This document shows positions 12,514 through 62,817 of a DNA stretch of 64,000 nucleotides, piece by piece (positions within the stretch are counted from its first letter, which is position 1; the number at the start of each line of letters is the position of its first letter). This stretch comes from Burkholderiales bacterium (GTDB lineage Bacteria; Pseudomonadota; Gammaproteobacteria; Burkholderiales; Burkholderiaceae_C). The DNA lies in NCBI GenBank assembly GCA_030604135.1, contig JAUVWL010000016.1, positions 1 through 64,000 on the forward strand. The letters run 5' to 3'. A program made the translations under genes and the position numbers. The notes below the pieces were generated by a model that ran no database searches, was not told the origin of the DNA, and saw nothing but the letters and a program-made list of their open reading frames with translations.

Positions 12514-13632
12514 ATGAACACACTCGCCCAATGCCTGAACGTCGATCGCCTGCTGCTGCAGGCCCCCATGGCCGGATCGCAGGGTTCGGCGCTGGCCTTG
12601 GCCGTCTGCCAGGCTGGCGGCGTCGGCGCCCTGCCCGCCGCCATGCTGACGCCCGAGTCGCTCACACAGGAACTGATCGTGCTTTCAAAGGGTACCGACC
12701 GGCCCTGGAACGTCAACTTCTTCTGCCACACGCCCCCGGCACCCGACCCGGCGCGCGAGGCGGCGTGGCGGCAGGCCCTGGCGCCCTTCTATGCCGAAGC
12801 CGGGCTGGACATCACCGCCGTGCCGGCGGGTGCCGGCCGGGTGCCTTTCAGCCACGCGGTGGCCGACCTTGTCGAGCCCTTTCGCCCACCCATCGTCAGC
12901 TTCCACTTCGGTCTGCCCGCGCCCGACCTGCTGGCCCGTGTCAAGAGCTGGGGCAGCCTGGTGCTGTCCTCGGCCACCACGGTCGACGAAGCGCTGTGGC
13001 TGGAATCACAGGGCGTTGACGCGGTCATTGCGCAAGGCGTCGAGGCCGGAGGTCACCGCGGCATGTTCCTGAGCCCCCACGCTCCACCGCTGCGCGGGTC
13101 GCTGCCCCCCGAGGGGGCTGATCCGGCTTGGGGCGGCCCGGCGCCGGATCTCCTCACCTCCCAAATCGGCCTCTTCGCCCTGCTGCCTCAGATCGTGGCT
13201 GCGGTGCAGGTTCCGGTGATCGCCGCCGGCGGCATCGCCGATGCGGCGGGCGTGCGCGCGGCGCTGGCCCTGGGTGCCGCCGGCGTGCAGGTGGGCACGG
13301 CCTACCTGTGCAGCGACGAAGCCAGCACCAGCACCATCCACCGCGCGGCGCTGCAGAGCGAAGCCGCGCGCCACACCACCCTGACCACCTTGTTCAGCGG
13401 CCGGCCAGCACGCGGTATCGTCAACCGCGTGATGCGCGAACTCGGTCCGCTGAACCCGGCCACCCCTGCCTTTCCCACAGCCACCGCTGCCATCGCACCA
13501 CTGCGAACGCACTGGGAGAAACACGGCAGCGGCGACTTTTCGCCCCTGTGGTCCGGTCAGAATGCCAGCGGCTGCCGGTCACTGCCGGCAGGCGAGATCA
13601 CCCGACAACTGCTGCGCGGTTTCGGCGACTGA
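12514..13632 (+). CDS. Nitronate monooxygenase-like FMN enzyme with a repeat-encoded insertion
   Basis: A 372-residue TIM-barrel protein of the nitronate monooxygenase (2-nitropropane dioxygenase) family. The N-terminal QAPMAGSQGS, GVDAVIAQGVEAGGHRG, VPVIAAGGIADAAGV and AGVQVGTAYL segments bind FMN and form the active site. Between HRGMFL and LLTSQIGLFALLPQ, which are normally nearly adjacent, lie about 26 residues (SPHAPPLRGSLPPEG and following) encoded by a palindromic repeat at 13071-13150 that also occurs between hydrogenase genes. The frame is kept. The insertion is in a loop after the FMN-phosphate region and may be tolerated. The family detoxifies nitronates; a role with the divergent hpa genes is unproven. 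Confidence 0.88.
   Translation: MNTLAQCLNVDRLLLQAPMAGSQGSALALAVCQAGGVGALPAAMLTPESLTQELIVLSKGTDRPWNVNFFCHTPPAPDPAREAAWRQALAPFYAEAGLDITAVPAGAGRVPFSHAVADLVEPFRPPIVSFHFGLPAPDLLARVKSWGSLVLSSATTVDEALWLESQGVDAVIAQGVEAGGHRGMFLSPHAPPLRGSLPPEGADPAWGGPAPDLLTSQIGLFALLPQIVAAVQVPVIAAGGIADAAGVRAALALGAAGVQVGTAYLCSDEASTSTIHRAALQSEAARHTTLTTLFSGRPARGIVNRVMRELGPLNPATPAFPTATAAIAPLRTHWEKHGSGDFSPLWSGQNASGCRSLPAGEITRQLLRGFGD
13071..13150 (+). repeat. Family B palindromic repeat, inside a coding sequence
   Basis: About 80 bp running from AGCCCCCACGCTCC through GCTGCCCCCCGAGGGGGC to GCGCCGGATC. It is nearly identical to the reverse complement of 62575-62656 and related to copies at 57599-57690 and 59047-59135. It has a CCCCC/GGGGG core hairpin and terminal arms GATCCGGC / GCCGGATC. 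Here it lies in frame within the nitronate-monooxygenase-like gene. Confidence 0.9.
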
Positions 13633-57592: not shown

Positions 57593-57906
57593 GGCAGAAC
57601 CTCCACCCCCACGCTCCCCACTGCGGGTGGTTCGCTGCCCCCCGAGAGGGTTGGCCCCGATTGGAGCGGCCCGGCGCCGGGTCCTCCCTCGGCGGCCTGC
57701 ATCTCGGCAAACATGGCCAGGGTCTTCTGTGCCTCGTCGGGGTCGAGCACGCCGATGGCGTGGCCGACGTGCACGATGACGTAATCTCCGACATTCGCCT
57801 CTGGCACGAGCGCGATGGAGATGGGTTTGCGGATGCCGCCCAGTTCGACCAGGGCCTGGTCGTGGGGGCGCTTTTCCACCAGCAGCGCGGGAATGGCTAG
57901 GCACAT
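57589..57906 (-). CDS. hypC: Hydrogenase maturation chaperone HypC with a repeat-encoded tail
   Basis: A 105-residue HypC. It begins MCLAIPALLVE with the essential Cys2, and has GDYVIVHVGHAIGVLD. Ordinary HypC proteins end near residue 75-90; here about 31 residues (GGPGAGPLQSGPT onward to VEVLP) are encoded by a degenerate family B repeat at 57599-57690. Cys2 shuttles Fe(CN)2CO from HypD to the large subunit. Overlaps hypF by 10 bp. Confidence 0.92.
   Translation of the reverse strand: MCLAIPALLVEKRPHDQALVELGGIRKPISIALVPEANVGDYVIVHVGHAIGVLDPDEAQKTLAMFAEMQAAEGGPGAGPLQSGPTLSGGSEPPAVGSVGVEVLP
57599..57690 (+). repeat. Family B palindromic repeat at the hypC 3' end
   Basis: ACCCCCACGCTCCCC, GCTGCCCCCCGAGAGGG, and GCGGCCCGGCGCCGGGTCC correspond to the family B copies at 13071-13150 and 62575-62656 with more changes. 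It is in the opposite orientation to hypC and is translated as the HypC C-terminal tail. Confidence 0.8.
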
Positions 57907-59040: not shown

Positions 59041-60033
59041 TCAGGCACCGGTTTCGCCGCCGGGCCGTCCCAAGGCGGAACGCGCCCCCTCGGGGGGCAG
59101 CGACCCGCTCAGCGGCGGAGCGTGGGGGACCATGTGCAGCAACCAATTCAGCCAGGCGTCCATGCCTTCCCCGGTCGTGGCGGACAACTGGATGACTTCG
59201 ATGGCCGGGTTCACGCGCCGCGCCAGGTCGATGCAGCGGGCGACGTCGAACTTCACGTGCGGCAGCAGGTCGGTCTTGTTCAGGATCATCAGCTGCGAGG
59301 CCGCGAACATGTCGGGGTACTTCAGCGGCTTGTCCTCGCCCTCGGTCACCGAGAGGATGGCCACCTTGGCGGCTTCGCCCAGGTCCCACACGGCGGGGCA
59401 GACCAGGTTGCCGACGTTCTCGATGAACAGCAGGCTGTGCTCGTCCTCGTGGTGGTGGTGATGGTGGTGGTGATCGTCACCATGTCCATGGTCGTGACCA
59501 TGCGCGTGGTCGTGGCCATGGTGGTGGTGCGAGTGAGCGTGCGTGTGCAGCTGGGCGAACGCCTCGGCCACCATGGGGGCGTCGAGGTGGCAGCCCTTGC
59601 CGGTGTTGACCTGGATCGCGGGCGCGCCGGTGGCGCGGATGCGGTCGGCGTCGAAGCTGGTCTGCTGGTCGCCCTCGATCACGGCCACCTGCAGGCCCGG
59701 CTGCCTGGCCTTGAGCGCCTCGATGGTGGCGCACAGCAGCGTGGTCTTGCCCGAGCCAGGGCTGGAGACGAAGTTGAGCGCGGTCACACCGTGCGACTCG
59801 AAGTGCGCGCGGTTGAGCTGTGCCACGCGGTTGTTGGCGCCCAGGATGTCGGTCTCCAGCTTGATGGCCCGTTCCTGGCTCATGCCTGGCACCGACACGC
59901 GGGCTGCGCCGGCCCCGAAGTGCAGGTCGCCATTGACCGGGTTCACCGTGATCACACCAGGTTCACCGCCGGCCTGTTGCACGTGCCGGGCATGGGCCGG
60001 ACTGTTGTCACTGCATCCGCACACGACACACAT
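59041..60033 (-). CDS. hypB: Nickel incorporation GTPase HypB with internal His-rich loop and repeat-encoded tail
   Basis: A 330-residue HypB. It starts MCVVCGCSD with the high-affinity Ni cysteines. G motifs: [11 protein letters not shown] (residues about 90-100), [16 protein letters not shown] and LNKTDLLP. Between residues 163 and 199 about 22 of 37 residues are His, with Asp and Gly. This Ni-binding stretch is inserted between G-domain elements, whereas most His-rich HypB proteins have it at the N-terminus. The last 31 residues ([15 protein letters not shown] onward) are encoded by a family B repeat. Confidence 0.94.
59047..59135 (-). repeat. Family B palindromic repeat at the hypB 3' end
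   Basis: On the minus strand: GTCCCCCACGCTCCGCCGC, GCTGCCCCCCGAGGGGGC, then TTGGGACGGCCCGGCGG. Related to 13071-13150; translated as the HypB C-terminal tail in the same reading frame as in the nitronate-monooxygenase-like enzyme. Confidence 0.88.
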
Positions 60034-60108
60034 GTTCTGTCTCCTTGTAAACGGCCATCCAAGTTACTTCAAACGCACAACCGCAGGCGTGCGTTCCAGG
60101 GCGCCCGT

Positions 60109-60274
60109 GGAACTGGCTTCGCCAGGCCACAGGGAGCGTCCTCCTCCCGCCGAAGGCGAGAGAGGGGGCAGAGGACCGCGGCTCCCAAGCCTGCCTGCGC
60201 AGGCTTGGACGGGACGAAGAGGCTTCGACTCTGGCGAAGCCACGGCCTGCAAGGCGAGCGAAGCGGCGCAAGGG
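60109..60274 (+). repeat. Long family A repeat with two extra hairpins, between hypA and hypB
   Basis: It starts GGAACTGGCTTCGCCAGGCC (hairpin 60113-60125, stem CTGGC/GCCAG) and ends GCGAAGCGGCGCAAGGG as in other A copies. Its middle contains a hairpin at 60185-60208 (10-bp stem, loop CTGC) and one at 60221-60241 (7-bp stem, loop ACTCTGG). The same two-hairpin module occurs in the family B copy at 62660-62817 with different but matched stems. It fills most of the 248-bp hypA-hypB gap. Confidence 0.88.
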
Positions 60275-60281
60275 CTGATTC

Positions 60282-60632
60282 CTATTCATCATCGCTCACG
60301 CGCATGTCAACGACGCGCAATTCCATGCCACCGGTGGGCTGGAGCTGATAGCCACCGCAAGCCGGGCAGGCGTTGCCGCGCTGGGCGATGGCCACGGTCT
60401 GGGCGCACTGCATGCACCAGGCCTGGCCGGGGGGTTCATCGATCTCGATGCGGGCGCCGTCCAGCAGCGTGCCGGGGGCCAGGCTGTCCAGCGCGAAGCG
60501 CAGCGCGCGGATGTCCACGCCTGCCAGCTGGCCGGCCTCCAGCCGCAGTTCCAGCAGGCGTGCAAACCCCTCACGCCGCGCAGTGTCTTCCACCAGCTGC
60601 AGCACACCGCCGGCCAGACTGGCTTCATGCAT
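60282..60632 (-). CDS. hypA: Nickel metallochaperone HypA
   Basis: A 116-residue HypA. It begins MHEASLAGGVLQLV with the Ni-binding His2, and has zinc CxxC pairs CMQCAQT and CPACGG. It delivers nickel with HypB. Start ATG 60632 overlaps the hoxV stop by 8 bp; the open frame to 60689 lies over hoxV. Confidence 0.94.
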   Translation of the reverse strand: MHEASLAGGVLQLVEDTARREGFARLLELRLEAGQLAGVDIRALRFALDSLAPGTLLDGARIEIDEPPGQAWCMQCAQTVAIAQRGNACPACGGYQLQPTGGMELRVVDMRVSDDE

Positions 60633-61779
60633 GGGTCGTCTCCATGCCGTTATCGTGCCCGATCCGGGCGTCGATGTGAAAGGGCACACACGGATCGAAG
60701 GCGGCCATCAGCAGGTGGAGCTGGGCGGTGAGCTCGGTCGACTGGACAGGCAGGGAAGCCATGACCTGGGCGACCAGCCCTTGCGGATGAAAGTTCCATT
60801 CGGTCGGTGCCAGCACCTGACAGGACAGCACCCGGACCGGCTCACCATCCAAAGGCGCCTGCAGCGCCACCTGGTGGACCAGCAGGCCGCGGGCCATCTC
60901 GACCCAGGCCAGCCCCTGGCGAGGCCCCAGGTTCAGTGCACCCCAGGTCAACCAGCCCTTCCCCGCCTCACCCGATGCATCGGGCAGGCACAGCCGCACC
61001 AGCTCGGCCAGCCGGCTGCCCAGCAGCGACCACGTGGTCCAGGGCTGGGCAGGCTCGCCCAGGTGGCGGCGCGACCAGGTACCCGTGCAGGCGGTCTGCC
61101 CCTCCCAACTGGGATGCCGTGTGAACGCCTCATGCTCGCTGAGGGCATGACCCAGTGCACGCCACTGAGCCGGATGGGCTTGTGGGCGCAAGATCTGCTC
61201 TCCCACCCCTGGTAGGGACAGATCGGCGGCACGGACGGCCTGGATCAGGCGGGGCAGCCAGGCCGTGTGACGGCGGCTCCAGTCGTCGAGCCAGTCGGCA
61301 CCGCAGGCCTGCCAGGCCCGCAACCAGGTGGCCGGCGCCATCTGCAAAACGTCCTCCTGCAACCACTGCCGCATGGCCGACCACGGTGCCACATCCACGG
61401 GCACACCGATGAGGGGACAGGCTCGCAGGCAGGCGATGGCTTGCTCCGGAATGGTCGATTCCACCGCAGGCAAGCCGAGCAGCCGCGGCCAGTCCAGGGC
61501 CATGCGCCGGACATGCTCCAGGGCGGTCTCGCGCTGCAGCGCAGCCGCCACGTCCACCGGGCCTGGCACCAGGCCCGGATCGGCGGCTTGCAGCGCCAGC
61601 CGGCTGGCCATGCGGTGCGATTCGCCACACAGGCTGTAGAGCCCCGCCAGCAAACCCGGCAGCTGTTGGGCCGGCTGACCCGGCGCCATGCGCGCAGCCC
61701 AGGCCCGCCGGCTGCTGATCAGCCCATGGGGCATGGCACGACCCGGAGCCAGGCGAAGTGCACCGGCCAGATCGCTCAC
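60625..61779 (-). CDS. hoxV: Hydrogenase accessory protein HoxV (HupK-like)
   Basis: A 384-residue protein related to [NiFe] large subunits. It keeps a C-terminal FDPCVPFHI and APTEWNFHP but lacks the L1 CxxC nickel motif, as HupK/HoxV proteins do. HoxV is thought to carry the Fe(CN)2CO intermediate to the membrane-bound hydrogenase large subunit. Overlaps hoxT (61776-61779) and hypA. Confidence 0.87.
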   Translation of the reverse strand: MSDLAGALRLAPGRAMPHGLISSRRAWAARMAPGQPAQQLPGLLAGLYSLCGESHRMASRLALQAADPGLVPGPVDVAAALQRETALEHVRRMALDWPRLLGLPAVESTIPEQAIACLRACPLIGVPVDVAPWSAMRQWLQEDVLQMAPATWLRAWQACGADWLDDWSRRHTAWLPRLIQAVRAADLSLPGVGEQILRPQAHPAQWRALGHALSEHEAFTRHPSWEGQTACTGTWSRRHLGEPAQPWTTWSLLGSRLAELVRLCLPDASGEAGKGWLTWGALNLGPRQGLAWVEMARGLLVHQVALQAPLDGEPVRVLSCQVLAPTEWNFHPQGLVAQVMASLPVQSTELTAQLHLLMAAFDPCVPFHIDARIGHDNGMETTHA

Positions 61780-62342
61780 GAGGCACGCCCCTGGGTGGCG
61801 CCGGAACGCCCGAACAGGAAAGCCCGCCGCGGGGGAACCTCGGGCGCAGGGGCCGGTGGCGCGTCCACGGGGGTCAGGGCGGACATCACCTCCTGCGCGG
61901 TCTCGCGTGCCAGCGCCTGATGACCGAAGTCGTTCATTGGCGAGAACAGGGCACAGGACTCGTGAAATCCCAAGGACGGGTCGTGAGCGCCGATGAACTC
62001 GAAGCGCTCGGTACCGAAAACGTGCACCCGCTTGCGACCGACCAGCCCGGCATGCCCCTCGACCGACAGGGGCAGTCGCACCAGATTCATGAACCAGGGT
62101 GTGATGAGCACCCCTTCGGCCACCGCAGCCTCGTTCGACGCCACACGAAAACCCACGGCCTCCACCGACAGCGCCGGGTTGAGTATCGGAATTCCCTGCA
62201 TGCGTTCGGTCTCCACCAGGCGGTAGAAGTCGAGCAGATGCTGCACACGTTCGTCCAGCGTCCAGCGCGCAGTCCCTGCGGCTGGGCCGCTGGGCAGCCT
62301 GTTTTCCGAAGGGGTCTGGGACAAAGGGCGCAGGGTGTTCAC
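61776..62342 (-). CDS. hoxT: Hydrogenase assembly chaperone HoxT (HybE/HupJ family)
   Basis: A 188-residue HybE/HupJ-like protein: ERMQGIPILNPALSVEAVGFR, GVLITPWFMNLVRLP, GTERFEFIGAHDPSLGFHESCALFSPM. It helps assemble the membrane-bound hydrogenase, probably in small-subunit maturation. The GTG at 62342 is chosen: it lies one base after the hoxR stop and gives the conserved length; the frame runs to 62564 across hoxR. Confidence 0.86.
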   Translation of the reverse strand: MNTLRPLSQTPSENRLPSGPAAGTARWTLDERVQHLLDFYRLVETERMQGIPILNPALSVEAVGFRVASNEAAVAEGVLITPWFMNLVRLPLSVEGHAGLVGRKRVHVFGTERFEFIGAHDPSLGFHESCALFSPMNDFGHQALARETAQEVMSALTPVDAPPAPAPEVPPRRAFLFGRSGATQGRAS

Positions 62343-62343
62343 G

Positions 62344-62574
62344 TCACGCCTCCAGCATGAGGAACTGTTCGGCGTCACCGTCACAATTCGGACAGCGCCA
62401 GTGCGGTGGCAGGTCGGCAAACGGTGTACCAGGCGGGATCTGCCACTGGTCATCACCCACGGCAGGGTCATAGACCCACCAGCAGATCTTGCATTCCAGG
62501 CGCGAGTCGGCCTTGAGCACCTCGCGGTTGCCAAGGTAAGAGCCTTCGAAGCCTCTGGAACCACAGGAGCTCAT
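62344..62574 (-). CDS. hoxR: Rubredoxin-like hydrogenase protein HoxR
   Basis: A 76-residue rubredoxin. LECKICWWVYDPAVGD and HWRCPNCD give the four Fe-binding cysteines. HoxR/HupI-type rubredoxins are needed for membrane-bound hydrogenase under O2. The start at 62574 gives the family length. The frame is open to 62817, where an ATG overlaps the hoxQ stop (ATGA); that form would add 81 residues encoded by two family B repeats, with further in-frame ATGs. Confidence 0.88.
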   Translation of the reverse strand: MSSCGSRGFEGSYLGNREVLKADSRLECKICWWVYDPAVGDDQWQIPPGTPFADLPPHWRCPNCDGDAEQFLMLEA

Positions 62575-62656
62575 GCGATCCGGCGCCGGGCCGCCCCAAG
62601 CCGGATCAGCCCCCTCAGGGGGCAGCGACCCGCGCAGCGGTGGAGCGTGGGGGCTC
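62575..62656 (-). repeat. Family B palindromic repeat upstream of hoxR
   Basis: Almost identical, in reverse, to 13071-13150 (one difference in the CCCCC/GGGGG core). It is in tandem with a longer copy and in frame with hoxR. Confidence 0.92.
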
Positions 62657-62659
62657 ATA

Positions 62660-62817
62660 CGATCCGGCCCCGGGCCGCCCCAAGCCGGATCAGCCCCCGA
62701 GGGGCTTGGCGCCGCGGCTCCAGACGTGCCTGCGCACGTCTGGACGGCGTCAAGTGGCGCTGACTCTGGCAGCGCCCTGCTCAGCGACCCGCGCAGCGGT
62801 GGAGCGTGGGGGCTCAT
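62660..62817 (-). repeat. Long family B repeat with two-hairpin module, between hoxQ and hoxR
   Basis: Ends match family B. The middle contains hairpins 62720-62743 (10-bp stem, loop CTGC) and 62756-62776 (7-bp stem, loop ACTCTGG), the same module as 60176-60241. Its right end overlaps the hoxQ stop codon. Confidence 0.9.

Follow-up and report, generated by a model that had tools for sequence, protein, structure and literature searches.

A covarying folded core defines an 84-bp interspersed unit, probably a Beta-proteobacterial repeat element, nested in different host repeats

Why should two different repeats of one bacterial genome carry the same pair of hairpins, with identical loops and with stems that differ by changes matched on both arms? 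The question is raised by a stretch of 64,000 nucleotides from a Burkholderiales bacterium (GenBank assembly GCA_030604135.1, contig JAUVWL010000016.1, positions 1 to 64,000 of the forward strand; hereafter the window), where a two-hairpin module occurs at 60176-60241 in a repeat of family A and at 62711-62776 in a repeat of family B. We propose that the module forms the central part of an interspersed unit of 84 bp, which most likely is a Beta-proteobacterial repeat element (BRE) and is maintained and probably spread through its folded plus strand; we assign this reading a probability of about 0.5. A repeat that is common in a large group of bacteria, and that a 2011 report had probably described but not explained, is thereby given a statistically supported structure, exact unit borders, empty as well as filled sites and a model with which copies can be found. 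It can now be asked in testable form whether the unit is recognised as RNA or as single-stranded DNA, and by which enzyme it is moved.

The letters of the two window copies, termed A and B, bear out what a preliminary description of this DNA had claimed. The loops CTGC and ACTCTGG are identical, 12 bases separate the hairpins in both copies, and all three differences in the stem of hairpin 1 (HP1; CCAAGCCTGC/GCAGGCTTGG in copy A versus CCAGACGTGC/GCACGTCTGG in copy B) as well as all three in the stem of hairpin 2 (HP2; GGCTTCG/CGAAGCC versus GGCGCTG/CAGCGCC) are matched on the opposite arm. The 12-base linker, equal in length as described, is nevertheless not a mere spacer, since some of its bases form a further helix, P1, with letters that precede stem 1. 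The module said to be common to both repeat families is indeed one, namely a separate unit lodged in each of them. The observation is real and stronger than first claimed. Searched with a fixed-letter pattern (at most 3 mismatches), the 3.98-Mb genome gave four matches, two in the window and two elsewhere, while a reversed control pattern gave none. Unmatched changes do exist among these four copies: the copy at C36 has one HP1 mismatch (G, C and L numbers are our labels for genomes, contigs and loci).

The structure comprises P1, which closes HP1, followed by HP2, with 23 pairs in total. Its covariation was assessed in an alignment (A1) of 49 of 55 copies extracted from pattern matches in genomes of the same bacterial family, from which the near duplicates L041, L045, L080, L081, L085 and L087 were left out; rows were kept only with at least nine of ten HP1 pairs, so that HP1, unlike P1 and HP2, is pre-selected. 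Standard pairs occupy 92.6% of the 1,127 cells, both sides change in 18 of the 23 pairs, and none of 500 shuffles reaches any of five measures. The helices that were not pre-selected show both-side changes in five of six (P1) and seven of seven (HP2) pairs. RNAalifold, unaided, returned the same helices plus C5-G55, U6-A54 and U19-A45; the first two surround two G.A mismatches, and this tandem G.A step is flanked by U-A and C-G.

A larger set (A5) consists of 108 matches to a covariance model (R1) in 100 loci, 105 of them distinct. Unmatched stem changes are not as common as matched ones here: 2,235 Watson-Crick and 49 G.U pairs make up 94.6% of 2,414 cells, in an alignment that was fitted to the model. 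The covariation test that the preliminary description had proposed gave 12 significant column pairs, all 12 within the 23-pair structure, against a tree-aware null in which substitutions were re-placed along a FastTree tree (60 simulations, E <=0.05), our own imitation of R-scape applied to an alignment that leans towards the model. The fold P1-HP1-HP2 and its covariation extend across genera, and both alignments together with the tree-aware null strongly support the suggestion that a folded single strand is under selection or is an intermediate in copying.

The unpaired letters of the module are conserved too. Within A5 the unpaired CGGCT reaches 96-100%, the HP1 loop CTGC 94-98%, GAAG 93-98% and CTCTGG 86-100%, and all four are steadier than most stem positions; the conservation of CTGC, CTCTGG and, in some rows, GAAG is partly built in, because the search patterns fixed CCTGCG, GGAC and CTCTGG (one also CGAAG), but left CGGCT free. 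Mispairs are distributed as expected if the plus strand folds, with G.U in 49 versus A.C in 23 cells and G.A or A.G in 42 versus T.C or C.T in 15. Imperfect hairpins are known to undergo template switching during replication, by which one arm of a quasi-palindrome is copied from the other without any selection, and HP1 is long and G+C rich. Neither the asymmetric CGGC bulge nor the tandem G.A step should survive such copying, yet their letters are 93-100% conserved in 105 copies, and CGGC and the first G.A letters lie outside the seed patterns. P1 and HP2, moreover, are short; we therefore consider template switching an improbable source of the matched changes.

The borders of the unit follow from a miniature inverted-repeat transposable element (MITE) with the ends CCTAGAAACGGCAGTTG, measured at 16 of 20 loci (one end was unrecognised at the other four). 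Eleven of these MITEs are empty and 234-237 bp long (in G023, G226, G261, G015 and the genome of the window), four contain one unit and span 318-320 bp (G023, G226), and one contains two units head to tail and spans 402 bp (G261). The inserted stretch extends from TGAG to CTGCAAGG and measures 84 bp in three and 85 bp in one of the four cases measured. A discrete unit is hence present zero, one or two times at one fixed point of the MITE, and it occurs in two other repeat families as well. The filled family B copy of the window differs from a simple copy by a 76-bp stretch at the hairpin CCCCC-GGGG, and the four units of this genome lie, by reading, two in B-type and two in A-type surroundings. 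Across the copies read, the module can have either orientation relative to the surrounding arms.

The unit might also be an ordinary MITE passenger, amplified only within its host repeats and devoid of mobility or function of its own. G023 harbours roughly 140-150 MITEs (149 forward and 139 reverse matches to the CCTAGAAACGGCAGTTG end), and the four examined of its 10 unit matches all lie inside the MITE; family B is likewise abundant, its tails having 98 matches in the genome of the window (control 0), often spaced 84-85 bp. Yet the same unit resides in the MITE, in family A and in family B, facing either way relative to the arms, and has conserved letters that persist longer than those of the host repeats, which makes a mere passenger quite improbable. 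The MITE itself has CCTAGAAACGGCAGTTG as its terminal inverted repeat (TIR) and apparent 5-bp target repeats (e.g., L271, L272 and L274 in G023; L283 and L284 in the genome of the window). At one further locus (L120; G166:C9:816-892 and 1851-1927), two identical units stand inverted, approximately 1 kb apart.

Regarding placement, the 5' border of the unit coincides with the end of a hairpin (5 bp or more) in 88 of 104 copies, compared to 30.2 expected from shuffles of the same bases; the unit usually lies directly 3' of a hairpin. We infer that it is a non-autonomous mobile, or formerly mobile, element, new copies of which would be placed at the 3' base of a hairpin. A protein or an RNA would read the conserved loops, the 4-nt bulge and the tandem G.A step, and the folded strand could be either RNA or single-stranded DNA. 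The unit's own 3' hairpin (HP3) may recreate the insertion site, which would explain head-to-tail arrays. In a bolder version, the unit would be a minimal mobile nucleic acid devoid of genes. It would be recognised in its folded, single-stranded form, and an undescribed enzyme would insert it beside other hairpins, at their 3' base; the targets would be the hairpins of repeats and, in other families, the arms of terminators and of tRNA or tmRNA. Its 3' hairpin would recreate the target and so build arrays; as a joint claim, we regard this as doubtful. Group IIC introns and IS110/IS1111 elements insert beside terminator hairpins or into repetitive extragenic palindromic (REP) or attC hairpins, and the unit resembles them in its association with hairpins but has no open reading frame (ORF). 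Correia/NEMIS and enterobacterial repetitive intergenic consensus (ERIC) sequences are likewise short interspersed intergenic repeats, whereas the present unit shows no TIRs of its own and nests in a TIR-bearing MITE.

The preliminary description had pointed to a TnpA-REP transposase, also termed REP-associated tyrosine transposase (RAYT). The REP and REPIN sequences moved by such enzymes are, like the unit, short, palindromic and extragenic, occur in many copies and form composite repeats (PMC2817692), and in G061 a single unit lies approximately 1.4 kb from a Y1_Tnp gene (in G190, approximately 3.1 kb). Across 42 genomes, however, Y1_Tnp (PF01797) was not associated with the unit, being present in 18 of 22 carriers and 15 of 20 non-carriers, and the carriers G098, G100, G108 and G244, with 10 to 26 copies, have no Y1_Tnp match. 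The 22 Y1_Tnp places in carriers were all examined over approximately 1.4-2 kb to either side, or less at contig ends, and two flanking units were seen at none of them. The consensus lacks the GTAG-like head before a single palindrome seen in the examples of PMC2817692, and instead of that palindrome a single unit with a larger compound fold of P1 plus two hairpins, and with no linked transposase, stands beside a hairpin. Mobilisation by a RAYT is accordingly very improbable, and the unit is set apart from the REP/RAYT systems that the first inspection had brought up.

The unit is widespread within its bacterial family, matching in 97 of 299 genomes (the genome of the window included) and 59 of 141 genera when at most 16 candidates were scored per genome; with more candidates scored, the copy number reaches 31 per genome. 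Nine of 300 genomes in a sample of the order match, five of them outside the family and weak, and in a sample of the class only the genome of the window does (1 of 274). A 97-base copy found no match among plasmids, and two patterns gave a single match in viral contigs, judged on reading to be chance. Thirteen named stretches match, 10 of which pass the HP1 pairing filter, and their sources are a Rhodoferax assembly, Comamonadaceae bacterium G21597-S1 and one uncultured beta-proteobacterium.

Compared by description, this distribution and the size of the unit make its identity with BREs likely. According to Hot et al. 2011 (PMC3110155), BREs are approximately 90 bp long (75-91 bp in Bordetella), have 69% GC, are mostly intergenic, stand in tandem with zero or few bases between them, reach up to 29 copies (Polaromonas JS666) and inhabit Comamonadaceae, Rhodoferax included, and Alcaligenaceae; no function could be suggested. 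The present unit, at 84 bp, falls within the 75-91 bp of BREs, forms a tandem pair in G261 and is hosted by Betaproteobacteria, Comamonadaceae above all (a Rhodoferax sp. and Comamonadaceae sp. G21597-S1), so that size, tandem habit, hosts and copy range agree. The excerpted account in PMC3110155 gives no fold, host repeats or empty sites, all three of which are described here, and our confidence is lowered by its ambiguous statement on the replication fork, which may mean no preference. As a proxy for BREs, proximity to lexA was found at none of 30 loci, which says little, as the genomes are not known as Bordetella. A literature search for BREs by name yielded only PMC3110155 itself, although other papers may exist, and the excerpt of PMC5217627 contains nothing on this repeat. 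The Burkholderiales-1 motif, a structured-RNA candidate of Burkholderiales that has no Rfam accession in the description given in PMC2864571, may be the same as our unit.

Several observations weigh against a unit that spreads through its folded plus strand. Firstly, among 83 separate places (98 matches minus 15 repeat fetches; genes called with a crude caller of our own), the gene on the 3' side of the unit is antisense in 63, sense in 19 and missing in one, and it ends within 60 bases in 49 of the 63 antisense but only one of the 19 sense cases; without the 38 copies crossed by an ORF call, the counts are 39, 5 and 1. Secondly, 68 of 103 copies in 13 complete or near-complete genomes are oriented against the replication fork and 35 with it (origin set at dnaA and terminus opposite, lengths rounded for four genomes, five G132 matches left out). 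The p-values of these biases (approximately 1e-6 and 0.0015, respectively) are optimistic, because the copies within a genome are related. Thirdly, the free fold of copy A retains HP1, loses P1 and HP2 and pairs the remainder otherwise, and its reverse strand is predicted to be the more stable one (-45.6 versus -42.0), while copy B folds freely into complete P1, HP1 and HP2 plus a few flanking pairs, with its plus strand favoured in the prediction (-56.0 versus -52.8). Moreover, the variation between zero, one and two units at one site could reflect slippage or recombination between flanking GCAAGG repeats, and an old shared polymorphism may account for the unit standing at one and the same point of the MITE in three lineages. 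Finally, no enzyme was found, neither through a Y1_Tnp link nor as a mobility gene among the scanned recurrent neighbours: an all-against-all BLAST of 377 ORFs, crudely called, gave eight clusters of at least three, and one or two members of each, scanned against Pfam, belong to common families (LysR, aldehyde dehydrogenase, ABC transport, TctC, APH, Cys/Met pyridoxal-phosphate enzyme, HAD and AzlC).

Lagging-strand transposition of single-stranded DNA, as for IS200/IS605 elements, was rejected, as both the fork and the antisense bias run contrary to its prediction. The tails of family B, in comparison, have no orientation bias at 30 loci (right-hand gene antisense in 12, sense in 12, none in six). 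Within the bacterial family, a tRNA gene was found at one of 60 loci carrying the unit.

The main rival to mobility is a role as RNA, and the two can hold together. The fold would then be selected as a small RNA or as an RNA domain of longer transcripts, acting either in trans or on neighbouring genes with overlapping 3' ends, and the spread of the unit would be incidental. The length of the R1 model (77), the antisense position towards the 3'-end gene in 63 of 82 copies and the excess of G.U over A.C on the plus strand are consistent with this explanation. If the unit is a BRE, it would gain further from one BRE copy that, according to PMC3110155, was picked by an RNAz screen and gives rise to an RNA, BprJ1, of approximately 70-80 nt antisense to both neighbours (and to a form of approximately 200 nt in one phase), and from bprJ being altered in an RNase III mutant (PMC8386462). 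On the other hand, a shared promoter appears unlikely given the differing host repeats and either orientation within them, the recurrent neighbours belong only to common families, and Rfam produced no match at gathering score in the window and only weak, chance-level matches below cut-off in local scans. We deem a purely RNA-based selection possible, yet hold it only tentatively. A hammerhead-like reading of CUGA...GAAG was discarded, as its core letters do not fit the consensus.

The features of the window that concern the unit and its host repeats are compiled in Table 1.

Table 1. Positions of the repeat units, their helices and the surrounding host repeats in the window.
Feature	Position	Strand	Remarks
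Repeat unit copy A, 85 bp (84-bp type plus an extra C)	60170..60254	+	Inside family A repeat between hypA and hypB
Model match of copy A	60165-60242	+	Covariance model R1, 88.0 bits; unit borders by analogy with the empty/filled MITE comparison
P1 5' strand, copy A	60173..60178	+	Pairs with 60210-60215; GGACCG/CGGGAC, two G.A mismatches
P1 3' strand, copy A	60210..60215	+	Within the supposed linker of the preliminary description
HP1, copy A	60185..60208	+	Loop CTGC
HP2, copy A	60221..60241	+	Loop ACTCTGG; absent from the free minimum-energy fold of copy A
HP3, copy A (GCCT-gca-AGGC)	60245..60255	+	Predicted, read from the letters; 3' end of the 84-bp type; the same segment closes the unit in MITE copies
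Family A host repeat around copy A	60100..60275	+	5' hairpin 60107-60130; outer borders approximate
Repeat unit copy B, 76 bp (AAGG half of HP3 missing)	62706..62781	+	Inside family B repeat
Model match of copy B	62701-62777	+	R1, 85.9 bits; unit borders as judged against the simple family B repeat at 62566-62657
P1 5' strand, copy B	62705..62714	+	Ten pairs with 62745-62754; T-A and G-C in place of the usual tandem G.A
P1 3' strand, copy B	62745..62754	+	Pairs with 62705-62714
HP1, copy B	62720..62743	+	Loop CTGC
HP2, copy B	62756..62776	+	Loop ACTCTGG
Family B repeat holding copy B	62650..62817	+	Abuts hupH stop codon 62814-62816
Simple family B repeat (empty form)	62566..62657	+	In tandem with the filled one
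Simple family B repeat	59069..59133	+	Overlaps hypB 3' end
Simple family B repeat	13070..13161	-	Elsewhere in the window

The neighbouring genes encode hydrogenase accessory proteins (HypB, HypA, HupH, HypC and HypF, according to Pfam) and a rubredoxin, and the 3' end of the family A host repeat adjoins the hypA stop codon at 60282-60284. Family B repeats at 59069-59133 and 57629-57683 overlap the 3' ends of hypB and hypC, respectively, and the open reading frames extend across them, giving C-terminal tails. As the family B units of 84 bp amount to 28 codons, their tandem copies keep a frame open between hupH and the rubredoxin gene (62344-62817).

Diverged relatives of the module were encountered at tRNA and tmRNA genes. 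At one locus (L292/L330; G366:C1:688722-689436), a relative is repeated five times in tandem (unit length 159 bp), and on reading every one of the five sits within the D-loop part of a 5' fragment of tRNA-Met; the array directly precedes an intact tRNA-Met gene, followed by an ORF with a weak, below cut-off match to a phage-integrase N-domain and by a GmrSD gene. Other diverged relatives (L293/L333 in G483, L331 at G366:C1:2798065, L291/L334 in G579 and L294/L332 in G513) are located immediately 3' of a terminator-like hairpin next to tRNA-His, within a duplicated 3' end of tmRNA and ahead of tRNA-Met.

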